DNA from: Rhizobium sp. CIAT894
Lineage (GTDB): Bacteria > Pseudomonadota > Alphaproteobacteria > Rhizobiales > Rhizobiaceae
DNA: 64,000 bases
Assembly (NCBI RefSeq): GCF_000172795.2
Contig: NZ_CP020947.1
Location: 3,413,001 to 3,477,000, forward strand
Direction: 5' to 3'
Numbering within the stretch: position 1 is the stretch's first letter; every line of letters begins with the position of its first letter. The translations under genes were made by a program, and so were the position numbers. Below, in pieces: positions 15,058 through 55,389 of the stretch. The notes below the pieces were generated by a model that had not been told where the DNA came from, made no database searches, and saw nothing but the letters and a program-made list of their open reading frames with translations.

Positions 15058-15130
15058 CTATTGGAAAACAGAGAAATGGAAAAATTATTTAATAAATTCG
15101 ATACTCCTTGCCAGAGTGAATTAGAATTTG

Positions 15131-15138: not shown

Positions 15139-15222
15139 TTCGTGGCAGCTTCCAAATCACGTAGCGTGTTCGGTATCGTGTAGGGGCCAGACCACCTTTC
15201 GGCGGCGGTAAAGGGGATAATT

Positions 15223-15924
<702 letters not shown>

Positions 15925-15955
15925 TTTTCCGATCCCCCCTTATCGGATAACGAAG

Positions 15956-15981
15956 ATCCCGCCCTTCTGGCGGGATTTTTC
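15956..15981. terminator. Rho-independent terminator after ctrA
   Basis: Stem ATCCCGCC / GGCGGGAT with loop CTTCT is followed by TTTTTCG, 32 bp past the ctrA stop. It also lies at the 3' side of the convergent receiver gene. Confidence 0.85.
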
Positions 15982-16129
15982 GTTGGCCGGCCATCGGAAG
16001 CGGCCCCGAGATGAGGACCTCCGGCTGGATCGGTTCAAAATCCTCTCTATCTCGATCAAGGAAACAGAATATCGGCGGCCGGAAGCGCCTGCACTTTCGG
16101 CCTCATGCTGCAGGGGAAGAGAGCTGCCG

Positions 16130-25477: not shown

Positions 25478-26776
<1,299 letters not shown>

Positions 26777-39561: not shown

Positions 39562-40473
39562 ATGGATCAGCTTTCGGCAATGCGCGTCTTCATCCGCGTG
39601 GTGGAGACGGGCAATTTCACCCGTGCCGCCGACATGCTCGCCATGCCCAAGGCGACGGTAACCAATCTCATCCAGGGTTTGGAGGCGCATCTGCGCACCA
39701 AGCTTCTCAACCGTACCACGCGCCGGGTCATGGTAACCACCGACGGCGCGCTTTATTACGAACGCGCCGCCCAGATCATTTCGGAGCTGGAGGAACTCGA
39801 CGGCAGCCTCTCCAATTCGCAGAGCCTGCCGAGCGGGCGGCTGCGCGTCGAGATGGCCGGCGCTTTTGCCGATTGGATCGTCGTTCCCGCACTCTGCGAC
39901 TTTTATCAGCGTTATCCCGATATCCGCATCGACCTCGGTGTCGGCGATCGCACGGTCGATTATCTTGCGGAAAACGTCGACTGTGCGCTGCGGGCCGGCA
40001 CGCCGGCCGACCAGTCGCTGATCGCGCGACGGGTCTCCGAAGTCGAGATGATCACCTGCGCTTCGCCGAGCTATATCCAGAAATTCGGCGTGCCAGAGCG
40101 GCCGGAGGATCTGGAGGCCGATCATTACTCGGTCAACTATTTCCGCGCCCAGAACAACCGAACGATGCCCTTCGAATTCCGTCGGCACGACGAGGTGATT
40201 GAAAGCAGTCCGCGCTACATCGCTTCGGTCAACGATAGCCGCACCTATCTGACGGCTGCGCTGACGGGTCTCGGCATCGCGCAGGTGCCGATTTTCATGG
40301 CGCGCGAACCGATAGCGAGAGGTGAACTCGTCCGCGTGCTCCCAGATTGGCGCCGCGATCCGCTGCCGCTCTATGTCGTCTACCCCCCGAACCGCCACCT
40401 CAGCAACAAAGTCCGCGTCTTTGTCGACTGGCTGGTAAAACTTCTGGTAGAGGCGAGACTGAACGACGGCTGA
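39562..40473 (+). CDS. LysR-family transcriptional regulator
   Basis: A 303-residue LTTR with N-terminal winged HTH (MDQLSAMRVFIRVVETGNFT ... RTTRRVMVTTDGALYYERAA) and a C-terminal type-2 periplasmic-binding effector domain. It resembles the DmlR/CrgA-like subgroup. It is divergent from the hydrolase-fold gene and RND operon (165 bp apart), so it probably regulates them. The frame extends upstream to 39445, but the HTH starts at 39562. Confidence 0.9.
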   Translation: MDQLSAMRVFIRVVETGNFTRAADMLAMPKATVTNLIQGLEAHLRTKLLNRTTRRVMVTTDGALYYERAAQIISELEELDGSLSNSQSLPSGRLRVEMAGAFADWIVVPALCDFYQRYPDIRIDLGVGDRTVDYLAENVDCALRAGTPADQSLIARRVSEVEMITCASPSYIQKFGVPERPEDLEADHYSVNYFRAQNNRTMPFEFRRHDEVIESSPRYIASVNDSRTYLTAALTGLGIAQVPIFMAREPIARGELVRVLPDWRRDPLPLYVVYPPNRHLSNKVRVFVDWLVKLLVEARLNDG

Positions 40474-40936
40474 GCACCAAAACAAATACGGCCCGGAAGG
40501 CAGGGGAAACCTTCAACGGGCCGGAATGTGCAACTTTGAACATCAAGCCTGTCGCACCGCAGGAAGGGCACGGCAGGCTCTGGAGGTCGGAAGAGGGCGG
40601 CAGGGAATTCCACTCTCTTGCGATAGAACAAATATACGCACTCCCCGCAGGATTGTAAGGGGAAATTCCGCAACCCCGTTCACATAATCGCGATGACGGC
40701 GCTAACTAGACGTGCCGAAGTGTTCGGATCTTTACATTGATCAACTCAAGCTGAAAAGCCACAACTTTATTAGATCGAATGCTGGGCCTATCACGATCGA
40801 GCATTCCTATTGTATGGCATTACGCCGTCATGAGCGGAAATCTGCGCGATTTACATATTTACGTTACTGGTCAATTGAGTACTGTCTTGATATATATCCA
40901 TACGCGAGTAATATTTATGATTAATGGGAGGCGACC
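40474..40936. other. AT-rich gap at the left edge of the accessory island
   Basis: 463 bp with no credible gene. From about 40680 the base composition drops sharply in GC and repeated AT-rich tracts appear (for example 40850-40925). Promoters for the 40937 gene pair are expected here. No tRNA or att-like direct repeat was recognised. Confidence 0.5.
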
Positions 40937-41050
40937 GTGGTCAGAGTAATTACATTCAGCTTCCTGATGATTGGGCTTTTGACCACTCTATCAGCTCCTG
41001 CTGATGCGGACATCATTTACAATAACTGCCAAAGAACGGGAGCTTGCTAA
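40937..41050 (+). CDS. Tiny exported peptide (37 residues)
   Basis: A short GTG-initiated gene preceded by GGGAGG at good spacing. The translation is a classic signal peptide (MVRVITFSFLMIGLLTTLSA, then PADA) followed by the short segment DIIYNNCQRTGAC with two cysteines. The stop is 2 bp before the next ATG, implying translational coupling. If cleaved after ADA the mature peptide is about 13 residues, possibly with a disulfide. It could be a signalling or toxin-like peptide, or the stub of a decayed gene. No homologue is known to me. Confidence 0.55.
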   Translation: MVRVITFSFLMIGLLTTLSAPADADIIYNNCQRTGAC

Positions 41051-41052
41051 CG

Positions 41053-41628
41053 ATGACGGAGCAGGCACCATTTTCCAGCTGGGACTTACCTTTTTGGTAT
41101 CGAAAACTATCTCGTTTCTCCAAGCTTATTGGCGCTGCCGGGGCTACCATCGCCGTTGCCGGCTTCGTCGTCGCTGCAGTTAATTTAGCGTTTGGGGTTT
41201 CGATATGGCAGAATCCAAGTGAACGCTATCGGGTAGAACTGGCAGATCACGCGAAGCCTATCATCGATGCATCGTATTCGCTTTTAGCGAAACCGGGCGT
41301 CACAGAGAGGCTTCTCGGCATCGAGGATATTCCACAGCGACGAGCCGCTATGGAGGCCATTTTCACAAGCTATATTGAAGATGGCGGGCTGGAAGGAACT
41401 CTTGAACAGGCGGTCGATACCTACGATCGCATTGTCAGGTGTCACGCCAGCTGGTTCTGTCGCTTCGACGACTACGATTCTCTTAATGATCAAATGATCA
41501 ACATCTGGTTTTCATACGCTGGGAAAATTCAGCAGATGCGTGGCAAGGTGACTGCGTCAGATTTCGGTGTGCCTTTGGAGCACGAAGCGGAACGCCTAAG
41601 GGCCGAGCAAAAAGCCAGGGTTGGCTAA
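41053..41628 (+). CDS. Single-pass membrane protein, unknown
   Basis: A 191-residue protein: short N-terminal region, one strong membrane helix at about residues 24-50 (LIGAAGATIAVAGFVVAAVN), and a helical ~140-residue soluble domain containing two Cys (RCHASWFCRFDDYD). The start is ATG at 41053, coupled to the tiny peptide gene. No family is recognised. It is the first of a run of exported proteins. Confidence 0.7.
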   Translation: MTEQAPFSSWDLPFWYRKLSRFSKLIGAAGATIAVAGFVVAAVNLAFGVSIWQNPSERYRVELADHAKPIIDASYSLLAKPGVTERLLGIEDIPQRRAAMEAIFTSYIEDGGLEGTLEQAVDTYDRIVRCHASWFCRFDDYDSLNDQMINIWFSYAGKIQQMRGKVTASDFGVPLEHEAERLRAEQKARVG

Positions 41629-41831
41629 TTCGGTACAATTTCAAGAGCACTGCTGAGCTTTTCATAACATAGTCAGCCACGGTAGCGGACAATGCCCGGG
41701 TGATCTTCCCTAAAGCCACGCTGGTAGCATTGGCGGCCGCGGAAACCACCAAGGATTGCCAAAGTCCGCAACCATTGAATAGCATTTTGGTCGGTCGAGT
41801 GCGGATTTCGGTCCGCCGTGAGGGGGATTCT

Positions 41832-43607
41832 ATGTCAGTCAGGACTTTGGCCGCATCGTTGATAGCGGCGGCAGTAATTGCATCCGGGGCAAGCGCTCAC
41901 GCGGACGAAACAAGCTCTCAGGGGTGGACGACCGCCCAGCGTGAAGGGTGGTATTGGGGCAGTCAGGGGTCACGTCTGTTGCCAGAGAAGTGGTTCCGAG
42001 CGCTTGAACGTGCGGGAAGCACGGAGAAACTGTCGGACGTGAAGTTTCTTGCATCGTTCGGCTACCTACCGCCACCTACTGGTAAAAGCCGTTACCCTGT
42101 GGGTTTTGGCATCGACAAGCAGCCCGACAAGGATTTCGAGGTCACCAGACTTCGGTGGTACGCGAACCAGTCGGGTGGAAGCCATGCCGAGCCTTGGATC
42201 GGGATGAATTGTTCCGCCTGCCACACTGCGCAGCTTAGCTACCAAGGCTCGTCGATAAGGATCGATGGCGCGCCAAGCCTGACGGACTTCCAGTCCTTCG
42301 TCGAGGCCGTCGACGCATCCATGAAGGAAACCAGGGAAGACAGCGCCAAATGGACCAGGTTTGCGAAGAATGTTCTCGGCCCTCAGAATAGCCCAGCCAA
42401 CAGGAAGCTTCTTGGCGCAGCCTTTGATAAGATGCTGACCTGGCAGCAAGATACTGCGAACCTGAACGCTACACCCCTCCGATACGGCTACGGGCGCGTG
42501 GACGCCTTCGGGCACATCTTCAACAAAGTCGTGATGTTCGCGGGTTCGGGAAAACTCGTCAACAATCCTTCGGACGCTCCGGTGAGCTTCCCATTCCTTT
42601 GGAACATCCACCGACAGACGCACGTGCAATGGAACGGCATCGCAGAAAACAGCAAGCTCAAGGTCGGTGCAGACTACGTCGATTACGGAGCGATGGGACG
42701 CAATGCCGGCGAGGCGATCGGCGTCTTCGGTGAAGTGGTGATCAAGCCGCAGAATAGCTTGATAGGAAACCTCGAGGGCTACACATCGAGCGTCCAGCTG
42801 GCAAACCAAGACAAGATGGAGTCGCTGGTGGAAATCCTCCAGCCTCCGAAGTGGCCAGCGGCCTTCCCGCCGATCGACAAGGAGCTCGCCAAAACAGGCC
42901 GTCGCCTGTTCGTGGAAAAATGCTCGAGCTGCCACTTCGACACGACAAAGCCCGAAGCGACCGAAACGCTCCACATTCTGTCGGCGATGGACCCCAAGGA
43001 CAGAACGGATATCTGGATGGCATGCAATGCCTTTTCCTCTACGATGCCATCCGGAATGTTGTCGCCATCGCAGCCGAATTCTTACGTCTTCGTCCGCGAC
43101 GGCCTCAGCGACACAGTCAAAGGCGCTCTTATTGGCAAAAAGACCGAGCTGGCCAAGGTTGCGCTCGGGAAGGTATTCGGCGGCGAGCCGGTTCCGCCGA
43201 TCATCGTCGACAAGACCTGGATGAATGCACTGCTGAGCCCCAAAGATCAGCGCCGCAAGTTCTGCGAGGCGTCGAAGGACAAGCTTATCCGTTACAAGGC
43301 ACGTCCGCTCGACGGTATCTGGGCCACGGCTCCCTATCTCCATAATGGGTCCGTCCCGACGCTTTATGATCTGCTTCTTCCTGCAAAGGACAGGCCAGCG
43401 AACTTCAGCATGGGAGGTAGGGAATACGATCCCAAAATGGTCGGGTTCGCAAAGGGCCAGACCGACGGAAACACCTTCCTCTACGAGACCAAGGACGGCG
43501 ACGGAAAGGCTATTGATGGTAATAGCAACGCCGGTCACGAGTACGGCGCGGCCGCGCTCAAGGACCCAGACCGATGGGCATTGGTGGAATACCTTAAGAC
43601 GCTTTGA
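41832..43607 (+). CDS. Exported di-haem cytochrome, RoxA-like family
   Basis: A 591-residue periplasmic c-type cytochrome. It has a signal peptide (SVRTLAASLIAAAVIASGAS, then AHA) and two haem-attachment motifs, CSACH (127-131) and CSSCH (364-368). C-terminal hallmarks of the RoxA/di-haem peroxidase-related family are RPLDGIWATAPYLHNGSVPT and FSMGGREYDPKMVGF. RoxA is a rubber dioxygenase; many relatives are uncharacterised and annotated as di-haem cytochrome c peroxidase. The start at 41832 follows AGGGGGATTCT. An oxidative role in the envelope is likely; the substrate is unknown. Confidence 0.85.
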   Translation: MSVRTLAASLIAAAVIASGASAHADETSSQGWTTAQREGWYWGSQGSRLLPEKWFRALERAGSTEKLSDVKFLASFGYLPPPTGKSRYPVGFGIDKQPDKDFEVTRLRWYANQSGGSHAEPWIGMNCSACHTAQLSYQGSSIRIDGAPSLTDFQSFVEAVDASMKETREDSAKWTRFAKNVLGPQNSPANRKLLGAAFDKMLTWQQDTANLNATPLRYGYGRVDAFGHIFNKVVMFAGSGKLVNNPSDAPVSFPFLWNIHRQTHVQWNGIAENSKLKVGADYVDYGAMGRNAGEAIGVFGEVVIKPQNSLIGNLEGYTSSVQLANQDKMESLVEILQPPKWPAAFPPIDKELAKTGRRLFVEKCSSCHFDTTKPEATETLHILSAMDPKDRTDIWMACNAFSSTMPSGMLSPSQPNSYVFVRDGLSDTVKGALIGKKTELAKVALGKVFGGEPVPPIIVDKTWMNALLSPKDQRRKFCEASKDKLIRYKARPLDGIWATAPYLHNGSVPTLYDLLLPAKDRPANFSMGGREYDPKMVGFAKGQTDGNTFLYETKDGDGKAIDGNSNAGHEYGAAALKDPDRWALVEYLKTL

Positions 43608-44057
43608 GGAAAGGGAAGAGATTTGGTTCCTAAGAGGAACCCTGGCGGCTTCCGCGCTGGCGGGTTCGCTACTATTACGGTGCTCGCCCGCGCCGCCTCC
43701 CACGATGCGGAGCGAGCTGCGCCACCGCGTATTAAGTATTGTCTTTCAAAATGGAAAATATTAAGCATATTTACAGACGAGTATTTTCAGTGTTTACTAA
43801 ATCTATGCTGGAATCCGCTTGCCTGCCAATTACATTCTAGCTCTTTGCTCAAAGTCACTCTGGTTTTTGAACCTCGCGTAAGTGCGTTGTTGTAGCCCGC
43901 CACGCTGGCGGATGAAATCTATGTCGCCGTCGTCACCGTTGCATCAGGAATACTGCCTGTCCCCTTGATTTAAGTTGCGGACTTTCTGCGCCAGATGGAG
44001 AAATCTGATATGTCGACACGGGATGATCGTCGGGACGGGAATGCTAAGGAGGAGAGC
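43608..44057. other. Gap without a gene
   Basis: 450 bp with no credible coding frame. The first ~130 bp remain GC-rich; 43740-43880 is AT-rich. A promoter for the DUF3616 gene probably lies at its right end. Nothing else was recognised. Confidence 0.45.
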
Positions 44058-45059
44058 ATGAGAAGAGCGCTAATCCATCTCACGGTGCTGCCGTTTCTGA
44101 TTGCCGTACCGGGCGCTTTCCCGGCGTCTGCAAACGCTATCCAACCGGAAAACCAACTCACTCCGCAGACTTCGCCGCCAATCGCGCCGGATGAAGCTAC
44201 TAAGGTGAGCGGAGCGGCCTGTTCGAACGATGGGAAGACATGTCTGCTCGTCGGCGACGAGTACAGTTACGCGTTGACCTTCGATGTGGACGACAACAAT
44301 GTCGCTATAAAGGATCGAGTATTCCTGCTCCCCAAGAAGGCTCAAGACGGACACAAATACAAGGAAACGGATGCTGAAGGCGTCTCCTTCAGCGACGGTT
44401 TCTTTTACATCGTCGGCTCCCACGGGCGTGACAAGGAAGGCGAAAAGCAAGACTCGCGCTATTTCGCATATCGGATTCCTGCCGAAGCGCTGTCGGGCGG
44501 CGATATAGGAGAAGAAAACAAGGTCTCACCAGCTGTTGAAAAAAGCGATCGTTTAGCCGCGCTGCTCAACCAGAGCGAAGCTTTGAAGAAAGCGAACGCG
44601 TTGCCTCCCGAAAAAGACGGTACGAATATCGAGGGGCTCGCCGTCACAGGAGACAAGTTGTTCGTCGGGTTCCGGGGCCCGCTTCCGGATGGCAAGGCCG
44701 TCATCGGTGAAACTTCGGTGAAACATGTGTTCGGCGCTGGGGCAGGCGGGCTGCAACTGCACCCGGTGGATTTGGGAAAGGGCCAGGCAGTCCGCGATCT
44801 TGCGGCATATCACGGCGATAGCTTGTTGATCTTGGCCGGTCCGCAAGACAGGAAGGGTGGCAAGGCCGCGGTCTATATTTGGAGTTCGGAAAACGGGCTT
44901 CTTGAACTGGCGGAGCTCGGTCCGGCTGGTTCAAAAGATCGGCAACCCGAGACGTTAATGGTGCTTTCTGAGGCGAACGGTTTGATACGCTGCCTTGTGT
45001 TCGACGACGGTGGCCTACCGTTCAATCCTCGGATATTCGAGATCCCTTCAAACCAATGA
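44058..45059 (+). CDS. Exported DUF3616-type protein
   Basis: A 333-residue protein with a clear signal peptide (MRRALIHLTVLPFLIAVPGA, cleavage near ASANA) and a beta-propeller-like body. Typical DUF3616 landmarks are SGAACSNDGKTCLLVGDEYS, DAEGVSFSDGFFYIVGSHGR and GTNIEGLAVTGDKLFVGFRGP. No enzymatic residues are evident; the family is thought to bind rather than catalyse. The ATG at 44058 has an optimal AAGGAGGAG site. It is flanked by gene-free gaps and probably has its own promoter. Confidence 0.8.
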   Translation: MRRALIHLTVLPFLIAVPGAFPASANAIQPENQLTPQTSPPIAPDEATKVSGAACSNDGKTCLLVGDEYSYALTFDVDDNNVAIKDRVFLLPKKAQDGHKYKETDAEGVSFSDGFFYIVGSHGRDKEGEKQDSRYFAYRIPAEALSGGDIGEENKVSPAVEKSDRLAALLNQSEALKKANALPPEKDGTNIEGLAVTGDKLFVGFRGPLPDGKAVIGETSVKHVFGAGAGGLQLHPVDLGKGQAVRDLAAYHGDSLLILAGPQDRKGGKAAVYIWSSENGLLELAELGPAGSKDRQPETLMVLSEANGLIRCLVFDDGGLPFNPRIFEIPSNQ

Positions 45060-45300
45060 AGCCGAGCTGGGAGCACACATCTTCAAGAATGGTAACGCTC
45101 AGGAGAGGGAACACCAGAGGCGGTCGTTCGTGTAATAGGTCATGTGTTGGCTGAGTTCTCGTCGGATAAATATTCTTGGTGCTTGCGGCATCTGTCCCGG
45201 TGGCCGCTCAAAGCGTCTGGCCTGCTGATCGGGTGATGTCCCAAAGCCTAGCCTGCCCTTAGGTGCATCGAATACCTCGGAGGCTAACGCTCTCTTCAAA

Positions 45301-45495
45301 ATGGACCATATTTCTAGTCCGCTGAGACAAGCTCTGTTCTGGGCGCATTCGCGTCGCAAATTTTTCGTGCTTGCCGACATCTCCACGAACGCCAAAAGGG
45401 AAAGAACGCCGGGCCGATCGCCAGTGGCGCTCAAGGCCGCGAAATGGATCGATGCCCTATTCGATACCGAGCCTGATCAACCTCGCTGCAAGTGA
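45301..45495 (+). pseudogene. IS66-family transposase remnant
   Basis: A short frame encodes ALFWAHSRRKFFVLADIST and then ALKAAKWIDALFDTEPD. This resembles the C-terminal region of the IS66 TnpC transposase (CWAHxRRKFFELAD ... ALxRIxxLFxIE). No start, no catalytic core and no terminal repeats remain. It shows that the island has received mobile elements before. Confidence 0.6.
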
Positions 45496-45693
45496 GAGAT
45501 GGCGCGACGTCACAAGGGCAGCCGTCGTCTTGTCGAAGAGTCTGCCTCACCTTCGCCGGGTAATATCAGATTCGTATTTAAAATTAGAAATTTGTCTAAA
45601 CTCAAATAAATCTATGTATACGATCGCAACTTATTCTTGTAAATCCGTATTATTGTGATAATGTTTGATATGGGTGGAGTTGTGGAGGGGGAA

Positions 45694-46047
45694 ATGTCGC
45701 GAAAAACAGCGAATGCATTGGCATTCCTACTAATAATGACTTCTTGTCATACTCCTAGCACGTCCCCTCGTGGTCCGGCTTTGGGCGATAGTACAGAAGA
45801 CAAGATAAAGAGCCGAATATTAGTCGGAGCGGCGGCTTGTCATTTCGTTCCGACACTGCAAACGATCGAAAGCCTGATCGTACTCTTTGGCGGATATAAA
45901 ATTCCCGTGATTGACATGGTGGTAGACGCGATTTGTTCGACAGTGGACAAATCGAAGGCTGCTGGCTTTGTTGTCGCCCCCTCCGCGGCAGTCCGTTCGT
46001 TTGGCAGCTACAAGGGTGTGGCCATCCAAGGACGTATCAAACCCTAA
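45694..46047 (+). CDS. Small putative lipoprotein
   Basis: A 117-residue protein with an N-terminal hydrophobic segment ending in a lipobox-like MTSC (Cys18), then a Ser/Pro linker and a short domain with two further Cys (AAACHFVPT, AICSTVD). The ATG at 45694 follows GGAGGGGGAA. It lies 14 bp before the next exported-protein gene and probably begins that operon. No family is recognised. Confidence 0.65.
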   Translation: MSRKTANALAFLLIMTSCHTPSTSPRGPALGDSTEDKIKSRILVGAAACHFVPTLQTIESLIVLFGGYKIPVIDMVVDAICSTVDKSKAAGFVVAPSAAVRSFGSYKGVAIQGRIKP

Positions 46048-46061
46048 ACAACAGGTGTGCT

Positions 46062-46730
46062 ATGCTCGATGTACGCCTTCGTCTTATTGTTTCGGTCGCA
46101 TGCTTTGCCACCATTTTTCATGTCGCTGCCGCGCAGGAAACATTGCTGCAGCCAATCTGGTCGGCTCCGGTGTCTGCCCGATACTTGGCAGCGGTTGACA
46201 ACAGCGCGGGGTTTGCCGCGCAAAGCAACGAATTCGGGAGACTGGATAGCTTTTCCCTGCCTGTAATCGGTTTGCAGGATGGTTTTGCGAGCGGAACACC
46301 GGACCCGGCATTGACCGACGCGTTCATCGGTAAAGCGTCGCAGGCAGCTCCAGACGAAAAATGGTGGCCATCCTGCGCAGGGCCTGTGCCGAAACCCCAA
46401 CTCGCGCGCGATGACACGGGCACATGGTATGCCGGTACCTACGATTTCGGATGTGTTCAGGTTACGATTATGGGCGATCGTAGCACCTCGAAGCCGACTT
46501 CGACGCAGTTTTCGGACGAGTTGAGCGAGCCAAGGGTAGATCCTTCGTCTCCTGCAGACGAAAGCGGTGATCCCGACGACGTCTATTCGGTCGTGCTCGA
46601 CAGCCTCCAGTTCGGAGTCCCTTACACGCTGACAATCGACTGCGACGACAGCAGCAAGGACCTGTGCCGAAACCGGCAGGATCAACTCACGCTATTGTCG
46701 AGGTTCACTATTCGCGCAGGAAAACCGTGA
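46062..46730 (+). CDS. Exported protein of unknown function, first before the protease genes
   Basis: A 222-residue protein with signal peptide (MLDVRLRLIVSVACFATIFH, cleaved near VAAA-Q). The mature part is acidic, rich in Asp, Ser and Pro, with four to five Cys (PSCAGPVPKP, FGCVQVTI, IDCDD, DLCRN) that could form disulfides. The stop TGA overlaps the ATG of the M23 gene (TGATG). Because it is co-translated with proteases it could be a substrate, inhibitor or chaperone for them; this is inference. Confidence 0.7.
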   Translation: MLDVRLRLIVSVACFATIFHVAAAQETLLQPIWSAPVSARYLAAVDNSAGFAAQSNEFGRLDSFSLPVIGLQDGFASGTPDPALTDAFIGKASQAAPDEKWWPSCAGPVPKPQLARDDTGTWYAGTYDFGCVQVTIMGDRSTSKPTSTQFSDELSEPRVDPSSPADESGDPDDVYSVVLDSLQFGVPYTLTIDCDDSSKDLCRNRQDQLTLLSRFTIRAGKP

Positions 46731-48226
46731 TGTTCAGGACCCTATCTATTTTGTCGACCTTACTGCTTTTAGGATCTACTGCGACCGCGGCGGACTCGTT
46801 TCGTTATCACGCGCCCGGCATTCTTGCCAAAGGATTGGGCCGTACAGGCGATCGGACGGTTTACTTCGAGCAGTTCGGCTTTCCGCTGCAGGCTGGACCA
46901 AAATACGGGGACGCCAGAGCATTTGCGAACAGCCAGGTTTACAGCACTGCGGGTGGCAATAGTGTTCTGAACTATGCCTATCCGTGGAAGGATACGTATT
47001 GTGAAGCCCGCTCATGGACGATGCCGCTTTGCCCGGGGAAAACGGGGCATCAAGGCGTCGATATTCGGCCCAATGCACCACCGGCCAAGGGTCTTGTGCA
47101 TCCAGTGCTTGCGGTGGCGGATGGGGTGATAATCGCCGCCACTCCCTTCACGCGCGTGGAAATACGTTCGATGGACAGCGAGGGACCATTCACGTGCCGA
47201 TACTTGCATATGAGCAAAGAGAGCATTGTAGGCTTGAAGGTCGGCGCGACCGTCAAAAAGGGCGATACGCTCGGTGACGTATCCAACATCATGGGCGCGA
47301 AGCCGGACACAACTTATCACCTCCATTTCGACTGCATGCGCAATATCGATGGAGTTGCAATCAGACCTCCGGTTTATACCTCGCTTGTGGCGGCCTATCG
47401 GAGAGCATGGCAGCTCGACGATCTTGTGAGCGACGGAAAGCTTGGTGTCGATCAACAGCGAGAAATCTCCGAGGTCGTCAATGACCAGCCATCCGGCGAA
47501 GTGAATACGTCACCGAAAACTTGGCAGACCAAAAACTATGGAGCAATCACTCCCCAAACCGAGCCAGATGGCTGGCCGCAGTACATAAAGACGTGGCCCG
47601 GTCTGGATCTCGCCAAGCAGGTTCGCGACAGCAAGGGCAAGATTATCCCCACGCTTTCCAATGATCAAAGCGGCGTTGGGCTCTGGTGGTATTGGTTGGT
47701 TGTTCGGGCAGGCTTTAATACCAGCGGTAAAATGACATTCCGGAATCTTGCGATGAAATATTCCGGTGCTCAGACTACCGCCGATCCATCCGTCATAAAT
47801 TATCTCACTAATTACGTTGGAGCGGGGGAGGGCGGAGGAGGAATAGCCAAGCTGTATTTTCCGACACCACCCAAGGCGGATGATGAACTCTCCTTGAACG
47901 ACGCCGAAACCCGATGGCGTATCGCTCAGACCGTTTTCCATTTCGAAGCTGGCCGAGCCGTTCCATTCGGCAGGTCTGCCTTCGATGAAGGAGTTGCGCT
48001 TGGCGATCGATTGATCGCCGGTGTGGCCGATTCGGGTGTAACGGTCCCCTTGGTATCATCTCCTGCGGAACCCGCCGGGACTGGTTCGCCTTCAGAAAAT
48101 GGAAAACTTCCAGCGTCGGCTTCCTGTGCTGCCAGCAATATCGAGATCACGAGACAACAAACGAGCGTAAAGCTCTCGGGATGTCTTTCGGAGAAACTGA
48201 TCCTGGAAATTGTCGGCTTGAATTAA
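46730..48226 (+). CDS. Exported M23-family metallopeptidase
   Basis: A 498-residue secreted protein. After the signal peptide (MFRTLSILSTLLLLGSTATA) an M23/LytM domain spans about residues 95-215 with all zinc ligands: H107 and D111 in HQGVD, and H197-x-H199 in HLHFD. M23 enzymes cut peptidoglycan cross-bridges or Gly-rich peptides. A second ~200-residue region (SGVGLWWYWLVVRAGFNTSG onward) has no family I can name; the C-terminus ends in a small domain with two Cys. The start overlaps the preceding stop. Confidence 0.85.
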   Translation: MFRTLSILSTLLLLGSTATAADSFRYHAPGILAKGLGRTGDRTVYFEQFGFPLQAGPKYGDARAFANSQVYSTAGGNSVLNYAYPWKDTYCEARSWTMPLCPGKTGHQGVDIRPNAPPAKGLVHPVLAVADGVIIAATPFTRVEIRSMDSEGPFTCRYLHMSKESIVGLKVGATVKKGDTLGDVSNIMGAKPDTTYHLHFDCMRNIDGVAIRPPVYTSLVAAYRRAWQLDDLVSDGKLGVDQQREISEVVNDQPSGEVNTSPKTWQTKNYGAITPQTEPDGWPQYIKTWPGLDLAKQVRDSKGKIIPTLSNDQSGVGLWWYWLVVRAGFNTSGKMTFRNLAMKYSGAQTTADPSVINYLTNYVGAGEGGGGIAKLYFPTPPKADDELSLNDAETRWRIAQTVFHFEAGRAVPFGRSAFDEGVALGDRLIAGVADSGVTVPLVSSPAEPAGTGSPSENGKLPASASCAASNIEITRQQTSVKLSGCLSEKLILEIVGLN

Positions 48227-48245
48227 CCGGAAATTGGAGCTGAAG

Positions 48246-49121
48246 ATGCGCCCGACTATTGTCTTGATGAGACTTCTCTCTGTGTTGGCCGCCTGCAGCG
48301 TCGCGGCCACGCCAATCTTCGCACAGGATCAGTTGGCCAACGCTATCGAACATCCTGACGATGCCGATGCTGTTAATCGCTATATCGAAACCCTCCCGGA
48401 GATACCGCCCGGATCTGGTCATTTCATGATCGAAGGAGATTTGTATCTCGACCGCCCCTCCGTCGTGGCATTTCTGAAGTCAAAAATAGAGACCAAGCCA
48501 CTGCCTGCCGGCGAGTTGATAGTAGATACGGTCAACGGGCAACCGAGCTATCTGAAGTCGATTCCCAGCCGACAGATGACGTACTCCTTGGTGGCATCGA
48601 GCTTTCCAAATGACCAACTTGCGCAACGCACCGACAGCGAACTCAAGCAGGCTGCTCAAGACTGGATCGACGCGTGCGCGAACTGCAACATCTCACTCAA
48701 GGAAATACCAATCGAGCAGGCCGGGAAATTCTACGAAAAGGTATCTTTCGTGCTGACCTACCTCGATGTCCAGGGCGGCCCGATCGCTCGATCGTTTTTT
48801 CCAAGCTCGCCGCCTGATGACCGGCAGATCGTGATCTTTCCCGATTTCTTTTCCAAAGACATGACCTTCGACCGGAGGGGCGTTTTGAGGCACGAGTTTG
48901 GACATATCCTCGGCTACAGGCATGAGCAGCTCGAACAGGCATCCGGATGTAACACGGCCGAGCCGAACAACTGGAAACCGCTGACGCCCTATAATCCGCA
49001 CTCGGTGATGCACTATATGTGCGGAAAGGGTGGTTCCTTCTCTCTCGCCCTGACGGGGAGCGACATCAAGGGACATCGGTGCCTTTATTTGACGGGGGCT
49101 GCATGCCCTCCGGGTAATTGA
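48246..49121 (+). CDS. Exported metzincin-type zinc metalloprotease
   Basis: A 291-residue protein with signal peptide (LSVLAACSVAATPIFA) and a C-terminal matrixin-like catalytic region. The zinc motif HEFGHILGYRH (H216, E217, H220, H226) is complete and is followed by a Met-turn candidate SVMHYMCGKGG. The N-terminal ~100 residues may be a propeptide. The ATG at 48246 follows GGAGCTGAAG and is 19 bp after the M23 gene. Two Cys pairs may form disulfides. Confidence 0.85.
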   Translation: MRPTIVLMRLLSVLAACSVAATPIFAQDQLANAIEHPDDADAVNRYIETLPEIPPGSGHFMIEGDLYLDRPSVVAFLKSKIETKPLPAGELIVDTVNGQPSYLKSIPSRQMTYSLVASSFPNDQLAQRTDSELKQAAQDWIDACANCNISLKEIPIEQAGKFYEKVSFVLTYLDVQGGPIARSFFPSSPPDDRQIVIFPDFFSKDMTFDRRGVLRHEFGHILGYRHEQLEQASGCNTAEPNNWKPLTPYNPHSVMHYMCGKGGSFSLALTGSDIKGHRCLYLTGAACPPGN

Positions 49122-49132
49122 GGGAAAATGCC

Positions 49133-51223
49133 ATGTTGCGCGCCGCCACAACCTTTCTGCTTCTTCTTCTAACCGGGACAATCTTTGCCGAAGCTCAAGA
49201 TAAACCGGGCAGCACGGTAAAGGAGCCCGCTCCGGTAACTGATCCGGTAGCTGATGAAGTGTTTGATGCTGCGTCGAAGGTCGAATTGCGAGGTCGAAAC
49301 GTTCCCGACGACTGGGCGGTTTTAGTCGATTCCCTCTCAAAGACTCCAGGTGCCCTCAAAACCCGTGAGGTTGTTGTTGGCCACGGCGACACGCTTTGTT
49401 CGATTTTGAAGAGCAATTTGCAACTTCCGGGGTGCTCTCAAAAAGCGGTTGAGGTGACCGCCAAGCTGAACGACAACGACAGCGTAGCCCGAGAGGGGAA
49501 GCGTCTCGTAATACCAGACTACGCCCTTGTGCCTAGCAGTTGGACGGTAACGTTCGACACCGCTGTTACCGAAGATCAATTTCGACTGGCCGACTTCGAG
49601 CATCGCTGGGGGGGATCGATCGCTGAAAAGACGATGAAGGACACGCGCGTCCAGCTGAAGCTCACCTCTTATGACGTGTTCGTCGACGCGCCTTTGGATT
49701 CGCGTTCGGCCGCTAAAGTTGACAGGGCGGTGCCCGAAAATCCGGTTGTGAAATCCTTGTCATCGCCTGCAACTGTTGCACCGTGGATCAAGAAACTTTT
49801 TTCTGTGAGCAATGACCTCGAAAAGAGGGCCGCCGCTTGCCAGCAACCAGGTTTCAAGATCGTCGATTCCATTTCCTACTATCAACTGTTCGGGGATGAC
49901 ACCCCGCCCACCTGCGTCACTCAATGCTTGAGAGGAGAATGTCCAGAGATAACACTGCTGGATACCGGCGTCTTCCGTCATGAGGTTCTCAAGGACGCAC
50001 TGGAAGTCGGAGGCATCGACGGCCCCTTAGGCTCGACGAGCGGCCCCCAGTGTCCCTTCATTGCCTGGCCGGGCGACGTCTCGCATGGAACGATGTTGGC
50101 GTCGATCATGGCCGCTAGGAAGACTGCAAACTCGGCGTTTACGGGTCTCGCTCCTTCGGCACTCATCAGATCCCACAACTACGTGGATATTCCCAATCCA
50201 GGCGCTGTCGCTACTATTGTCGACGATCGCGCCAACCATGTGTTCGACCGACCTCAACTTTTCGTTTTCGCATCCTCGATGCGCTATCCGCAGTCAAGCC
50301 TTGTGACGAGTGGTCAACTTCAGGATGAACATCGCCGTACGACAGATATCCCGGCTCTTGTCTCGGTGATCGCCAACAACTTGACCTGGGTGACCGCGGT
50401 TGGACAATCTGAAGGCGGTATCCCGCCGCACCAGATAACAAAGATCTCGCCGGAGACACCGATGAATCTTGGTGACCAGCGGAGTATAATCGTCGTGACA
50501 TCCTGCGATCCCTGCTCAGGACCAGCCGCAAAGGTCTGGTCACAAGCGAACTATTCAAATGAGCAGGAAGGTCTCGTTTCGATCGCGGCTCCGGGCGGGA
50601 CCGAAACGCATCCAATCCCGGGTGTAGCGAACCAGACGGAATACAGTGCGACCTGGGGAACCTCACAGGCTGCAAGCGTCGTCGGAGGCGTTTCAGCCGC
50701 CCTGATGAGCTGTTATCCGGAGTTCGATCGGGATGGCCGTTTCTTGAAATCGCGCCTACTTCAAACATCGCAGCCATTCCCCAATCCCGGGCCCCGGGAA
50801 AAAGGGCTCGGCATTCTCGATGCGAAGAGAGCGTTTCTGGACCCTTCGAAGAGTTGGTTGGACACGGGTGCAGGATTTGAGGCCCTAGACAGCTACAAGG
50901 TCTGTTCAGGCTCCTCGATAAACTTGATGGATGATCAAAACACGCCAATCGCCGTTGATACTCCGAGGGACTTTAGACTTGGCCAAATCCTGAATGTTGA
51001 ACCCAACGCAGCTGGCACTCCGGAATGGGTGGTCACATACATGAATTTGATGACCGCCCAACGGCGCGAGGTTGGCCCCGGAACATGGGCAGACGGTGCC
51101 TCGCTTTTGCAGGTTAAGAAAGAGGGGAACCCCCCCGAAGTTATTAACGGACTACAGATTAAAGCGTTCGTTCCGGCATTGACATCGATCGGTTCGGATC
51201 CGGAGGTGGTTAAGTGTTTGTAA
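49133..51223 (+). CDS. Exported subtilase (S8) with LysM-like segment
   Basis: A 696-residue serine protease. The signal peptide (MLRAATTFLLLLLTGTIFAE) is followed by a LysM-like stretch at ~79-127 (GHGDTLCSILKSN ... KRLVIPD), which could bind peptidoglycan. An S8 domain has the complete triad: D277 (LLDTGV), H318 (SHGTMLA) and S511 (GTSQAA). A ~100-residue C-terminal region follows. The start at 49133 is 11 bp after the metzincin stop; the end overlaps the trypsin-like gene by 10 bp. Confidence 0.87.
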   Translation: MLRAATTFLLLLLTGTIFAEAQDKPGSTVKEPAPVTDPVADEVFDAASKVELRGRNVPDDWAVLVDSLSKTPGALKTREVVVGHGDTLCSILKSNLQLPGCSQKAVEVTAKLNDNDSVAREGKRLVIPDYALVPSSWTVTFDTAVTEDQFRLADFEHRWGGSIAEKTMKDTRVQLKLTSYDVFVDAPLDSRSAAKVDRAVPENPVVKSLSSPATVAPWIKKLFSVSNDLEKRAAACQQPGFKIVDSISYYQLFGDDTPPTCVTQCLRGECPEITLLDTGVFRHEVLKDALEVGGIDGPLGSTSGPQCPFIAWPGDVSHGTMLASIMAARKTANSAFTGLAPSALIRSHNYVDIPNPGAVATIVDDRANHVFDRPQLFVFASSMRYPQSSLVTSGQLQDEHRRTTDIPALVSVIANNLTWVTAVGQSEGGIPPHQITKISPETPMNLGDQRSIIVVTSCDPCSGPAAKVWSQANYSNEQEGLVSIAAPGGTETHPIPGVANQTEYSATWGTSQAASVVGGVSAALMSCYPEFDRDGRFLKSRLLQTSQPFPNPGPREKGLGILDAKRAFLDPSKSWLDTGAGFEALDSYKVCSGSSINLMDDQNTPIAVDTPRDFRLGQILNVEPNAAGTPEWVVTYMNLMTAQRREVGPGTWADGASLLQVKKEGNPPEVINGLQIKAFVPALTSIGSDPEVVKCL

Positions 51224-52413
51224 AGATCTGCGTCGTTATCGCGGCAGTCATAGGACTGGTAGGTGAATGTTACGGCGCGGAGCTTTGCGCAGTCGAAAAA
51301 CTACCGCTAACGACGTTTGGGGAGCACGCCACGCTTAGCTATACCCTAAATGGTACTTCGCCCGAAAAGACATTTCCAGTCAAGCTCACGGGGGCGGAAA
51401 TACGATACACGCGGCTGCTTATTTCCGCTCCGTCACAGGGTTCCTATGACATCGAGATCAGGGATTTTACCGGCAAAGTACTGCAATCCATTGGACCAAA
51501 CTCCGTCGTCCATTCACAGAGCAATCCAACGCCAGGCGCAGTTGCCTTTTGGTCAAACCGCTTACCTGCGGCTATTTTGAAAGTCGAGGTGGCGGGTCTC
51601 AGCGCGAATCAGGACGTTAAGCTTTTAGAATATGAAGCAATGCCCGCAGGAGCCAAAGCCCCTTTCTACTCGGTCAAAGGCAACGAACCTTATTGGTTTG
51701 ACGCGTACAGCAGCTCGTTCGATGACGCCATCAAAGCCGAAGCCGATTCGGTGGGGATGTTGGTGACATCGGAGGGAAGCTCCTATAGCGGCTTCCGGAA
51801 TTGGTGCTGCTCAGGTTCGATTGTTTCAACAAAGCCCAGATTGCTCTTCATGACCAATTTCCACTGTGGAGGAACCGCCGGGGCAGTGGAAGACTATTGG
51901 AGTGATGACGTGTGCCATCACACGATCGTCGACTTTTCCTGGGATGGCGATACCGTCGGTAGAGAATACCAGTGTGTTAACGTTCCCGTGAAGGAGAAGA
52001 GCTTGGATCTGGCTGTTCTGGAACTTGCCCCTCTCGTGCCGGGCACTCCACCTCCGCCGGCAGTATTCTTTACCGCTGCCGAAATTAGGGATGGACAGAA
52101 TATTCACGTGATCCACCACCCACAATGTTTGCAGAAACAGGTTAGCGTGGCATGTACGGTTACGAAATCGAAGGCTGACGACTGGCTGAATGCCGGCCTG
52201 ATGAGCGATTTCGAACACGACTGCAATACTGAAGGCGGCAGCTCGGGAGCACCGGTCTTTGACGATGACGGCGAAGTTATCGGACTTCACCACCTGCCAT
52301 ATCACGAGACATCCCCTGGACTCTGCCAGCGCGCCAATGCGGCAGTATCGATCAATCCTGTAATTTCGGTGCTCAAATCGATATCTCCCACCCCGGTGTT
52401 GGATGTGAGGTAA
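51214..52413 (+). CDS. Exported trypsin-like serine protease
   Basis: A 399-residue protein with signal peptide (FVKICVVIAAVIGLVGECYG), an N-terminal ~140-residue beta-type domain, and an S1/V8-like protease domain with intact triad: H217 (TNFHCGG), D265 (LDLAVL) and S344 (GGSSGAPV). Several Cys suggest disulfides. The start is GTG at 51214, inside the end of the subtilase gene, with GGAGG at good spacing. It ends the protease operon. Confidence 0.87.
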   Translation: MFVKICVVIAAVIGLVGECYGAELCAVEKLPLTTFGEHATLSYTLNGTSPEKTFPVKLTGAEIRYTRLLISAPSQGSYDIEIRDFTGKVLQSIGPNSVVHSQSNPTPGAVAFWSNRLPAAILKVEVAGLSANQDVKLLEYEAMPAGAKAPFYSVKGNEPYWFDAYSSSFDDAIKAEADSVGMLVTSEGSSYSGFRNWCCSGSIVSTKPRLLFMTNFHCGGTAGAVEDYWSDDVCHHTIVDFSWDGDTVGREYQCVNVPVKEKSLDLAVLELAPLVPGTPPPPAVFFTAAEIRDGQNIHVIHHPQCLQKQVSVACTVTKSKADDWLNAGLMSDFEHDCNTEGGSSGAPVFDDDGEVIGLHHLPYHETSPGLCQRANAAVSINPVISVLKSISPTPVLDVR

Positions 52414-52745
52414 TTGTACCAAGAGTGTCCACCGGACTGTGTCAATCTTATGCCGCGTGCGAGCGCCATCCGTGCGGATTGCTGGCAAAACAATGATTAC
52501 CGGTGCTGGGATTGCATGCTTCCAGCAGCAGAAAAGGCCCGGATCGGGACAAATTGTTATGTCACGGCCTGAAGCCGACGATTTGCTCAAGGTTATGGCG
52601 AGCGCTTAGCAGCGTGCTGACGGCGCTCGTGGCCTGATCCCCGCCGCCAAATGCCTTAACCGCTCGCGCGGATGCGATATGCCAGTTATGCTGAAAGTTC
52701 GCGCAAGTCGCCGTTCAGCATGAACTCACAGCGTTGGAAGTCACG
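52414..52745. other. Gap between protease operon and phosphatase
   Basis: 332 bp without a credible gene; base composition is mixed. A promoter for the phosphatase gene is expected near its right end. No clear hairpin terminator was seen. Confidence 0.4.
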
Positions 52746-53321
52746 ATGAACCATTTCAGGCAGAACTCGCTACTTACAGCGCTTACCCTCGGGCTTTTGC
52801 TTCCGCTGACCTCCGCCGGATTTGCGAAGGAAACGGTGCGAAACGGTGATTGGGCGATGTCGGTTGTGCCGTCGGCCAATTTATATCGCATAACTCCGAC
52901 CTTTTTTCGCAGCGCGCAGATCCGCAAGGACGATGTGAGAGCCATTCGCTCGCTTGGCATTAAGACGATCGTCAGCCTTCGCGCATTGCATTCCGATCGC
53001 AACTTGCCAGGGCTTGAGAAAATCAAACTTGTCGGCATTCCGATGAACACTTGGCATATCGAGGATGAGGACATTATCGCGGCGCTGCGCGCGATCAGGA
53101 ACGCCGAGAAACTCGGCCCAGTACTTTTGCATTGCCAACACGGGGCCGATCGCACTGGAGTCGTGACGGCTATGTACAGGATAATTTTCCAGAAATGGAG
53201 CAAGGAAAAAGCTTTGGACGAACTCCAGAGCGGTGGCTTCGGCTACCACGCAATTTGGGCGAACATCCCACGGTACCTACGTACGGTCGATGTAGATAAG
53301 ATCAGACAAGCAGTGAACTAA
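52746..53321 (+). CDS. Exported dual-specificity phosphatase-like protein
   Basis: A 191-residue protein with a signal peptide (residues ~1-27, TALTLGLLLPLTSAGFA) and a cyclin/DSP-type phosphatase domain (PTFFRSAQIRKDDVRAIRSL). The catalytic P-loop HCQHGADRTG has the nucleophile C130 and R136. Export to the periplasm is unusual for tyrosine or dual-specificity phosphatases; relatives include phosphoinositide and polysaccharide-linked phosphatases. The ATG at 52746 follows GGAAG. Confidence 0.82.
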   Translation: MNHFRQNSLLTALTLGLLLPLTSAGFAKETVRNGDWAMSVVPSANLYRITPTFFRSAQIRKDDVRAIRSLGIKTIVSLRALHSDRNLPGLEKIKLVGIPMNTWHIEDEDIIAALRAIRNAEKLGPVLLHCQHGADRTGVVTAMYRIIFQKWSKEKALDELQSGGFGYHAIWANIPRYLRTVDVDKIRQAVN

Positions 53322-53575
53322 TTGCTTCAAGGGATGATCTGGCGAACGCGGGCAAAGCCTCTATTGTAAGGTGGGTGGCGGGTCTCGCAGATCAGCGGAA
53401 TAGGCTACGCAATGCAGGGCATTACCGGCATGACAAAGCCGGCTCCGGGGAAGGACGCGCGATGCCCCTTAGCACTGGAGGAACCGTCGACGGTTGCACC
53501 TCTTGTCGGGACACCGGCCGCGGGCTATCTTGCGCGGAAGCTGAGAATCGATTTTACCCTAATCGGCGTCACTTA

Positions 53576-54622
53576 AAGCGTGTCGCACTTATTCAGCCTC
53601 ATATCCGGCTGCTCTGAAGAAATTCAGGCATTCGTCGACCGAGAAGAGGCCGACAATTTCACCGAGGGCTTTTGTTATTGCATCGAAGCTTCGTGCGGCG
53701 CGTTTTCGTAGTAAGGTTTTGAGCTTGGAGAATGCCATCTCGATGGGGTTGAGGTCGGGTGAATAGCACGGCAAGAACAGCAGCCACGCTCCCCGCTCCT
53801 TGACCAGTTGTGCGGCACGCTCGCTCTTGTGGAAGCCAACATTGTCGAGAATTACGACATCTCCCCTCGACAATGTCGGAGCGAGTTGAGTTTCGATCCA
53901 GGCTTCGAAGATCCGTCCGTTCATCCGTGCATCGACGATGAACGGCGCAGTCAAGCTGTGACATCGCAGTCCGGCGATGAAGGTTTGAGTTCTCCATTTG
54001 CCGAATGGCGCATGGGTCCGATAGCGCTGGCCTTTGGGACACCGTCCGGTGCGCTTGGTCAGCTTGGTATTGGTCGATGTTTCATCGATAAAAATCAGCC
54101 GGGCCAATGCTTTGTTGAAGAAGCGCCGACGTCGCTTGATCCACAGGTCACGAGCCTGCGCGATCTCCGGTCGCAGTTGTTCGCTGGCCATGAGGCTTCT
54201 TTTATTGCTCAACCCAAGCCGTTGGAGAAACCGACCGATCGTGGCGCAATGGACCATCACACCGCGTCCGGCCAGTTCGAAACACAATTCGTCCAGCGTC
54301 ACATCGCCATCGACGGCAACACGCGCGACAATCCATTGGCTATGCGCCGCCAATTTACCGCCGCCTGCTGCATGGCCCTGCCTGGCCGGCGCCACCGAGC
54401 CCTGCGACCGGTGCAAGATCATCATATTGTTGACGAACCGCGGCGATACCCGGAAATGACGGGCGGCTTCGCGATGGCTATTGCCTTCCTCTACAAACGC
54501 AACCACTCGCACACGCAACTCTAACGGATGCGGCTTGCCCATGGTCGATCTCCTTCCATGCACAAGTGAACCACAAAGCAAGCTTCAATGGAATCCTGAA
54601 TCACGTAAGCTGCGACACGCTC
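53576..54622. mobile_element. IS630-type insertion sequence, complete
   Basis: Terminal inverted repeats AAGCGTGTCGCA (left) and TGCGACACGCTC (right) match at 11 of 12 positions, enclosing one transposase gene. TA dinucleotides flank both ends (53574-53575 and 54623-54624), as expected for the TA target of IS630/Tc1 elements. Length is 1047 bp. It marks the right edge of the accessory island. Confidence 0.85.
53589..54542 (-). CDS. IS630-family transposase
   Basis: A 317-residue transposase: N-terminal paired-type HTH (GNSHREAARHFRVSPRFVNN) and a DDE catalytic domain with acidic residues in LIFIDETST, VILDNVGFHKS and DLNPIEMAFSKLK. All three are intact and the frame is uninterrupted, so the element may be active. 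The ATG at 54542 (MGKPHPLELR) gives family length. Confidence 0.92.
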   Translation of the reverse strand: MGKPHPLELRVRVVAFVEEGNSHREAARHFRVSPRFVNNMMILHRSQGSVAPARQGHAAGGGKLAAHSQWIVARVAVDGDVTLDELCFELAGRGVMVHCATIGRFLQRLGLSNKRSLMASEQLRPEIAQARDLWIKRRRRFFNKALARLIFIDETSTNTKLTKRTGRCPKGQRYRTHAPFGKWRTQTFIAGLRCHSLTAPFIVDARMNGRIFEAWIETQLAPTLSRGDVVILDNVGFHKSERAAQLVKERGAWLLFLPCYSPDLNPIEMAFSKLKTLLRKRAARSFDAITKALGEIVGLFSVDECLNFFRAAGYEAE

Positions 54623-54645
54623 TAGGAACAGCCGTCGGTTCGTTG

Positions 54646-55389
54646 TCAGACCATCCCGCCATTGGCGCGCAGCGTCTGGCCGTTGATCCAGCCGCCGTCC
54701 GGGCCGGCGAGGAAGGCCACCGCTGCGGCAATGTCTTCAGGCGTGCCGAGGCGCTCCAGTGGGTTCATCTTCGCCATGCGGGCGATAAGCTCTTCCGATT
54801 TGCCGTTGAGAAAGAGGTCCGTGGCGACAGGACCGGGTGCGATGGCGTTGACGGTGATATTGCGGCCACGCATCTCCTTCGCCATGATCGCCGTCAGCGT
54901 TTCCACAGCAGCCTTGGTGGCGGCGTAGACGCCGTAGGTTTCGAGCTTCACCCCGACGACCGAGGTTGAGAAGTTGATGACCCGGCCACCGTCGCGCAGT
55001 CGCTTGGCCGCTTCCCTCAACGTATTGAACGTACCCTTGAGGTTGACGCCGATCTGGCGGTCGAAATGGGCATCATCGGCCTCGGCAAGCGAGGAAAGCA
55101 TCATGATGCCGGCATTGTTGACGAGAACGTCGACACCGCCGAAGGCGGCTTCCGCGGCATCGAACATGCGGCGGACGGCTTGCGCATCGCTGACATCGGC
55201 TTTCTCAGTCAGCGCCGTGCCGCCGGCCTGCTCGATCTCCCGGGCGAGTTCCTCTCCCGGAGCCGCATTGCCGGAGTAATTGATGACGACGGTGAAACCG
55301 TCCTTGGCGAGGCGTTTGGCGACCGCCGCGCCGATGCCGCGGGAAGCGCCGGTGACCAGTGCGACCTTGCCGTTTTCGTTGGGAGCCAT
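54646..55389 (-). CDS. SDR-family oxidoreductase
   Basis: A 247-residue short-chain dehydrogenase with cofactor motif TGASRGIG, NNAG, catalytic Ser region (NFSTSVVG) and YAATK, and the C-terminal GGWINGQTLRANGGM. The Asn/Tyr pattern near the first beta strand (VINYSG) suggests NADP preference. Its stop lies 21 bp from the IS630 element, so the insertion just missed it. It is divergent from a LysR gene that probably controls it. Confidence 0.9.
   Translation of the reverse strand: MAPNENGKVALVTGASRGIGAAVAKRLAKDGFTVVINYSGNAAPGEELAREIEQAGGTALTEKADVSDAQAVRRMFDAAEAAFGGVDVLVNNAGIMMLSSLAEADDAHFDRQIGVNLKGTFNTLREAAKRLRDGGRVINFSTSVVGVKLETYGVYAATKAAVETLTAIMAKEMRGRNITVNAIAPGPVATDLFLNGKSEELIARMAKMNPLERLGTPEDIAAAVAFLAGPDGGWINGQTLRANGGMV

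Follow-up and report, generated by a model that had tools for sequence, protein, structure and literature searches.

To our knowledge, the cytoplasm is where nearly all catalogued bacterial defense and cell-death systems operate, and the caspase, CHAT, and trypsin conflict systems are cytoplasmic as well. Among exported systems, the staphylococcal proteolytic cascade (aureolysin, SspA/V8, SspB) offers a point of comparison, with SspA being activated by aureolysin (PMC3454333). Here, we analyzed a 64,000-nt window of Rhizobium sp. CIAT894 (the whole stretch of DNA under study, within which all positions are numbered), where an initial annotation had pointed to an island encoding almost only exported proteins, four proteases among them, which might form one envelope-located proteolytic cascade. 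We report that three of these proteases, a metzincin, a subtilase (S8), and a V8-like serine protease (S1), make up a set that recurs in distant bacteria, and that the island bearing them is a foreign, bounded insert that also encodes a putative two-domain wall lysin. As the initial annotation had surmised, no described system with this gene set was found in the literature searched.

Results

The set is encoded by three neighboring genes:

48246..49121, plus strand, metzincin metalloprotease (matrixin-like), with the motif HEFGHILGYRH (HExxHxxGxxH) and the Met-turn SVMHY
49133..51223, plus strand, subtilase S8 (PF00082, 48.7 bits, cut-off 21.8), with an N-terminal extension of 200+ residues
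51214..52413, plus strand, V8-like serine protease S1 with an N-terminal beta domain (triad H217/D265/S344, chymotrypsin fold)

The catalytic motifs of all three are intact. Indeed, the His and Glu residues of the metzincin motif are invariant in 11 of 11 aligned rows, Pfam returning only Matrixin (22.2 bits, under the cut-off of 24) and Reprolysin_5 for this protein, and the S8 triad is complete (D277/H318/S511). A type VII mycosin identity was rejected for S8 (TIGR03921, 50.5 vs. a cut-off of 278.75). As for S1, residue 1 of V8, at which the mature chain starts, aligns with residue 153, just after the N-terminal beta domain, and Ser153 is invariant in 16/16 sequences. Because this N-terminal domain ends where the mature V8 chain begins, S1 is probably a zymogen, a build that lends indirect support to the proteolytic cascade put forward by the initial annotation.

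An S1 profile run against approximately 85,000 species genomes led to 12 confirmed loci, and in every one of them S8 lies beside S1, together with the metzincin in 9, a di-haem cytochrome also present in the window in 5, and a Cys-rich protein and M23 lysin in 1. A tblastn search with S8 in plasmids returned six Rhizobium records, all six also holding S1, and S8 adjoins S1 in the four of these plasmid loci that were read. When the scan loci, the four plasmid loci, and the window are taken together, S8 is beside S1 in 17/17 loci, the metzincin joins them in 12/17 (weakly in L021, with an expectation value [E] of 9e-6), and the cytochrome in 8/17. One outcome that the initial annotation had named as speaking against a single system, homologues found only scattered and at no place together, is not borne out by this adjacency. 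Among the carriers are Alphaproteobacteria (Rhizobium, Mesorhizobium, Bosea, Microvirga, Hansschlegelia, Phyllobacterium, and a metagenome-assembled genome [MAG] of the Rhodospirillaceae), as well as a Chromatiaceae MAG and a myxobacterium, Pyxidicoccus fallax (L020), and the gene order varies between them (metzincin-S8-S1, metzincin-S1-S8, S8-S1-metzincin, or a divergent S8 followed by S1-metzincin) while the set stays constant. Module genes are mostly spaced by -4 to +82 bases, and those that overlap do so by 4 to 53 bases, commonly by 4; S1 and S8 share a strand in 11 of the 12 scan loci, where 39/40 module genes score as exported by a crude hydrophobicity test. Pairwise distances correlate between S1 and S8 (0.97, 17 loci), S1 and metzincin (0.62, 12 loci), and S1 and cytochrome (0.99, 8 loci), with permutation p values of about 0.001 or less each, to which the common descent of the hosts contributes.

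By way of control, 18 generic-trypsin loci were drawn from the same S1 profile at lower score; once L076, L081, and L085 were dropped, their trypsin gene being uncalled, 0 of the 15 scorable loci held relatives of S8, the metzincin, M23, the Cys-rich protein, or the cytochrome. An intermediate locus with an S8-S1 pair of its own (L072) was left out of this control; there (genome G303, L072:3387-10715) the pair is followed by DUF1353, and an exported caspase fragment lies ~2.7 kb away on the other strand. The trio is also rare: of 397 genomes from the order, 3 give the S1 profile more than 100 bits, the studied one included, and of 385 from the class, 4 reach E 1e-20. A genome scan with a single metzincin sequence gave no confirmed locus. 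The S8 protein is found in no genome other than its own among 150 relatives and has five members, the window's included, in a large protein set. Overall, these comparisons support a conserved metzincin-S8-S1 core that the lipoprotein, the Cys-rich protein, the M23 lysin, the cytochrome, and the DUF3616 protein join variably. The notion of a single system is thus supported for this core with variable partners and not for all eleven genes of the island, the micro-peptide and the one-helix protein occurring in no other cluster.

Directly upstream of the trio lie two further genes:

46062..46730, plus strand, Cys-rich exported protein, directly upstream of the lysin gene and overlapping it
46730..48226, plus strand, putative bifunctional murein hydrolase (M23 endopeptidase plus Enc34-endolysin-like lysozyme domain)

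The M23 protein is predicted to have two domains. The first has a LytM fold with intact catalytic motifs (HQGVD and HLH, carrying the Zn ligands HxxxD and HxH) and resembles, in a fold search, lysostaphin, LasA, and the Lysobacter beta-lytic protease among others. The second has, by model, an all-helical lysozyme-like fold as in the Enc34-type endolysin (PHA02564). With regard to sequence, hhalign against 6 phage sequences gave E 8.1e-5 and a probability of 61, vs. 0.33 on reversal and 0.076 or worse for ten column shuffles. Searched alone, this domain has no sequence match in PDB or PHROG, PDB giving only chance-level matches to immunity proteins, and no M23-Enc34 fusion was present among the PHROG matches. 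The catalytic Glu131 of Enc34 (PMC8943055) aligns with E406 in both alignments, with a Tyr near Tyr95 and no clear equivalent of Trp79, and Glu406 is nearly invariant in 27 relatives. On this basis, the protein, which the initial annotation had counted as the fourth protease beside the metzincin, S8, and S1, is more aptly regarded as a lysin of the wall. R. ruizarguesonis has a recorded lysin with 98% identity to it (P0007), and a R. redzepovicii protein (P0029) has M23 fused to an astacin-type metalloprotease, which links the lysin with a metalloprotease. The Cys-rich protein, which has no family match in Pfam, NCBIfam, or PHROG, has homologues in the same position, before M23, in L026 and L007. 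The first of these, in Hansschlegelia, repeats the window order Cys-rich-M23-metzincin-S8-S1.

These five genes belong to a larger insert, the other features of which are as follows:

40703..54623 (approximate right end), no strand assigned, whole island, foreign insert flanked by LysR-family and SDR genes
39562-40473, LysR-family gene, left flank of the island
54646-55389, SDR gene, right flank of the island
40937..41050, plus strand, micro-peptide of 37 amino acids (GTG start, GGGAGG upstream; two Cys behind a presumed signal-peptide cut)
41053..41628, plus strand, one-helix protein of 191 amino acids with an N-terminal anchor
41832..43607, plus strand, exported di-haem cytochrome of the CytoC_perox subfamily (two CxxCH motifs, CSACH and CSSCH)
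44058..45059, plus strand, exported DUF3616 protein (PF12275, 76.8 bits, cut-off 20.6; weak phytase-like match)
45286..45540, no strand assigned, short repeated piece between the DUF3616 and lipoprotein genes, splitting the island into two blocks
45694..46047, plus strand, small lipoprotein
52746..53321, plus strand, exported DSP/tyrosine phosphatase (PF03162, 44.7 bits, cut-off 27; motif HCQHGADR intact)
53573..54625 (approximate), minus strand, IS630-family element at the right island edge (DDE_3, 104.7 bits)

The island is real and larger than the initial annotation had it, with a length of ~13.9 kb that includes eleven plus-strand genes followed by the insertion sequence (IS) of the IS630 family. 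All the genes named earlier are present, and 11/11 score as exported or anchored vs. 15/42 genes outside the island, by a crude hydrophobicity test that does not separate signal peptides from membrane helices and for which island gene starts were chosen by eye. The envelope location proposed by the initial annotation is supported. The guanine-plus-cytosine (GC) content drops to 0.545, vs. 0.615 elsewhere in the window. When codon usage is scored with the window as training set, island genes come out low (34 for S8, with 696 codons, vs. 415 for a 1066-codon gene at 34007). A second low-GC stretch lies at 8001-16000 (0.55-0.59). When compared with relatives, the site proved empty of the island in 11/11 genomes of the genus (the best 11, own genome excluded, among 59 other matching genomes), the sequence left of 40702 continuing right of 54624-54645. 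The two sides are 1-7 bases apart in 6 of them and 96 bases apart in 1, and the remaining 4 (L034, L035, L036, and L040) hold a different insert of ~1 kb, so that the site, at which insertion is variable within the genus, may be a small hotspot.

The IS traces claimed earlier were recovered as well. The terminus of the IS630-family element, whose DNA matches that of Rhizobium sp. CC1099 at 91.5% and whose two ends have GAGCGTGTCGCA / AAAGCGTGTCGCA in common, coincides exactly with the right island edge, and a TA stands beside the junction at both edges, which fits an IS630-linked insertion and is no proof of it. No direct or inverted repeats of at least 10 bases were found between the island ends, nor RNA families or tRNAs in the window, and hence there is no tRNA-type integration site. 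Island DNA is matched by 41 of 148 genomes of the genus; the own genome aside, no match is longer than 858 bases, at 68% (in the DUF3616 region, G027), and nearly all the remaining matches are pieces of ~80-265 bases at 45286-45540, which occur in most of the 40 other matching genomes. A reading frame in this repeated piece (45301-45492) has no Pfam match, and the piece is probably an IS remnant. With regard to mobility, decayed island pieces (part of S1 and the phosphatase) with ~93-94% DNA identity occur on nine plasmids from R. leguminosarum and R. ruizarguesonis, and in the one that was read (L008:9794-11379) a decayed S1 piece and an intact phosphatase lie beside an ISRle4 transposase. 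These plasmid copies and the 98% identical lysin indicate recent horizontal traffic between plasmids and chromosome, in keeping with a foreign or mobile origin. A phage or prophage origin was rejected, as no relatives of S1, the metzincin, or the M23 lysin were confirmed in viral contigs by patterns and tblastn, a limited test.

The accessory genes differ in how they recur. No homologue was seen for the micro-peptide, whose reading frame may not be a gene, and the one-helix protein has no match in Pfam, NCBIfam, PADLOC, or PHROG. The cytochrome, called RoxA-like earlier, is indeed di-haem (NF040606, 545.6 bits, above the curated cut-off of 150), yet its identity as the RoxA rubber dioxygenase is rejected (NF050033, 53.6 bits vs. 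a cut-off of 1000), and RoxB likewise, its equivalog cut-off being missed by far. Outside the window, the phosphatase appears only in decayed copies of the same island, behind a decayed S1, on Rhizobium plasmids. Among 983 called genes, lipoprotein homologues adjoin M23 lysins in R. ruizarguesonis L001 (E 4e-8) and S. medicae L005 (E 6.5e-6). The former locus, on the minus strand, has the lipoprotein gene first, then one that takes the position of the Cys-rich gene, then M23, and adjoins metzincin-S8-S1; the latter has DUF3616, an unnamed gene, M23, the lipoprotein, and a trypsin, the DUF3616 homologue thus standing two genes ahead of the lysin.

Wider partners were also met. Plasmid p1 of R. 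leguminosarum OyaliB (L007:6308-20946) encodes an exported caspase (C14), a trypsin, the Cys-rich protein, M23, a metzincin, a TPR-CHAT protein, and S8; the extracytoplasmic setting of this caspase seems unusual. In genome G349 (L110:1-13594), a divergent gene for an alpha-2-macroglobulin-domain protein precedes those for a metzincin, a trypsin-like protein, a lipoprotein, a cytochrome, a catalase-like protein, an unnamed product, and M23, and this protease trap might be a self-protection gene. Cytochrome clusters contain trypsin, patatin, and hydrolase genes in R. etli (L015), and catalase-like and patatin genes in NGR234 (L013). A plasmid of the cyanobacterium Geminocystis (L014:87-8608) has in a row a trypsin-lipase fusion, GH19, an amidase, a murein endopeptidase, and a di-haem cytochrome. 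Finally, an apparent purA, named by eye, lies at 25478-26776, ~14 kb left of the island, and another apparent purA, also named by eye, stands at a distance of two genes from the Hansschlegelia zhihuaiae cluster (L026:4592-14085).

Discussion

From these observations, we tentatively favor, at somewhat less than even confidence, an exported zymogen cascade of metzincin, subtilase, and V8-like protease that governs periplasmic wall cutting and travels on mobile DNA. The three proteases would be co-produced, moved across the inner membrane, and held inactive; S1 would then be activated when the metzincin or the subtilase cuts it just ahead of residue 153, in the way that aureolysin activates SspA in staphylococci. 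Once active, the proteases could remove envelope proteins and free the M23/lysozyme double lysin or allow it to act, and this lysin would cut both murein peptides and murein glycan, while the Cys-rich protein, encoded by the overlapping gene just upstream, may restrain it. The di-haem peroxidase might take part as an oxidative partner or a sensor, though not in every case. The proteins are likely to be exported to the periplasm. The genome encodes one secretin family protein, in a 503-aa frame, which by size we would place nearer the pilus secretin than type II. Because no type II secretin is evident, the cell's own periplasm is the most likely site of action, and release to the medium finds no support in a single secretin of pilus-like size. 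Murein cutting in the own periplasm needs restraint, which the zymogen cascade and the Cys-rich partner could supply. The likeliest use would be controlled envelope lysis or invader destruction, in conflicts involving phages, plasmids, or neighbors. A role in defense, competition, or host interaction, as suggested by the initial annotation, may be envisaged, although sequence alone does not distinguish suicide on infection, invader destruction, attack, transfer, and feeding.

Several observations weigh against this reading. The M23 lysin is missing from 11 of the 12 scan loci and the metzincin from 3 of them (L016, L017, and L019), S1 persists only as decayed pieces in the nine plasmid records, and M23 relatives occur in 58 Phaeobacter records, the single locus read there being without proteases. 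Moreover, in an unbiased sample of cytochrome loci (18 scorable among the 20 retrieved out of 36 listed places, the cytochrome being uncalled in L098 and L109), protease partners are found at only 2 of 18, so that the protease theme is confined to a minority of cytochrome loci.

The alternative that survives best, doubtful as it is, holds that the island is not one system, and that two blocks (micro-peptide to DUF3616, and lipoprotein to phosphatase) were pasted together as IS-gathered cargo with separate jobs. The repeated piece between the blocks would fit this view, as would the absence of the cytochrome from the protease set in 9/17 loci and the unmatched micro-peptide and one-helix protein; however, the cytochrome stands beside S8-S1 in the other 8/17 and co-varies with them, and DUF3616 and the lipoprotein both accompany the M23 lysin in L005. 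It is unlikely, albeit conceivable, that the proteases and the lysin form an outward weapon, leaving the cell in vesicles, by lysis, or through an unrecognized exporter to digest neighboring bacteria in the manner of Lysobacter enzymes or lysostaphin. The resemblance of the M23 domain to lysostaphin, LasA, and the beta-lytic protease speaks for predation, and one cluster lies in a myxobacterium (L020), myxobacteria being predators. Nevertheless, the single secretin, the absence of a dedicated exporter or a recognizable immunity gene from the island, and the likeness of the lysozyme-like domain to an endolysin acting from inside all argue against such a weapon. An equally speculative extension of the favored cascade would make it a complement-like envelope immune or suicide system, in which the mobile three-protease zymogen cascade is triggered by envelope damage at phage or DNA entry and unleashes the lysin with its two wall-cutting domains of phage type, while lipases, caspases, or peroxidases act as effectors in other lineages; if true, it would be the first known defense cascade lying wholly outside the cytoplasm.

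More doubtful still is a scavenging or nutritional role, with protein and the envelopes of dead cells as substrates, under selection as ordinary accessory metabolism. The island does encode degradative enzymes only, and its occurrence is patchy and sparse (the 3/397 genomes of the order mentioned above), but it is without peptide uptake or sugar genes, the same three protease types are stably linked across distant taxa, S1 is zymogen-like, and plasmids carry the set. Even under such a nutritional role, both the M23-Enc34 fusion and the metzincin-S8-S1 trio are undescribed in the literature searched. Finally, a helper of plasmid or conjugative transfer, opening the envelope for DNA export or blocking incoming DNA by murein and protein cutting, is improbable: L001 lies ~0.5 kb from traA, a VirB3-type gene is near L022, and several carriers are typed conjugative, but the window island is chromosomal and has no transfer genes, and as a rule transfer regions encode just one small lytic enzyme. 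Returning to the exported cascade, a conserved mobile cassette in which a double murein hydrolase accompanies exported proteases would suggest that proteolysis in the periplasm can be programmed.

Comparison with Known Systems

If the role in defense were true, the island would represent a new kind of system, even though secreted protease cascades with lytic enzymes are already known as a kind. No known anti-phage system was recognized among 10 proteins searched against PADLOC-DB 2023, which gave weak matches only (28.7 bits for S8 and 28.1 bits for S1, the latter to the C-terminal portion of a model for a reverse transcriptase-protease). The plasmid locus L007 recalls the caspase, CHAT, and trypsin conflict systems, with its caspase (C14), TPR-CHAT, trypsin, and S8 genes around Cys-rich-M23-metzincin, whereas the proteins of the window island are exported and no caspase or CHAT gene is present there. 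Set beside the RoxA/RoxB rubber dioxygenases and di-haem peroxidases, the cytochrome is a member of the CytoC_perox subfamily that stands far under both the RoxA and the RoxB equivalog cut-offs.

Compared with the staphylococcal cascade, the island has a metzincin in place of a member of the aureolysin family, its metalloprotease giving no aureolysin-type match in Pfam, and no staphopain-type cysteine protease was matched by Pfam among the 10 island proteins scanned; it adds a subtilase and a wall lysin, S1 has a large folded N-terminal domain, and the set is mobile and found in Gram-negative hosts. With regard to the lysin, phage endolysins of the M23 and Enc34 types (PHA02564) resemble its two predicted catalytic domains, and the secreted M23 bacteriolysins LasA, lysostaphin, and beta-lytic protease share its M23 fold. 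The island protein differs from the latter by its additional lysozyme-like domain and its genetic setting, and from the former in that it would join both domains in one exported, chromosomally encoded protein within a protease operon and with no phage around it.

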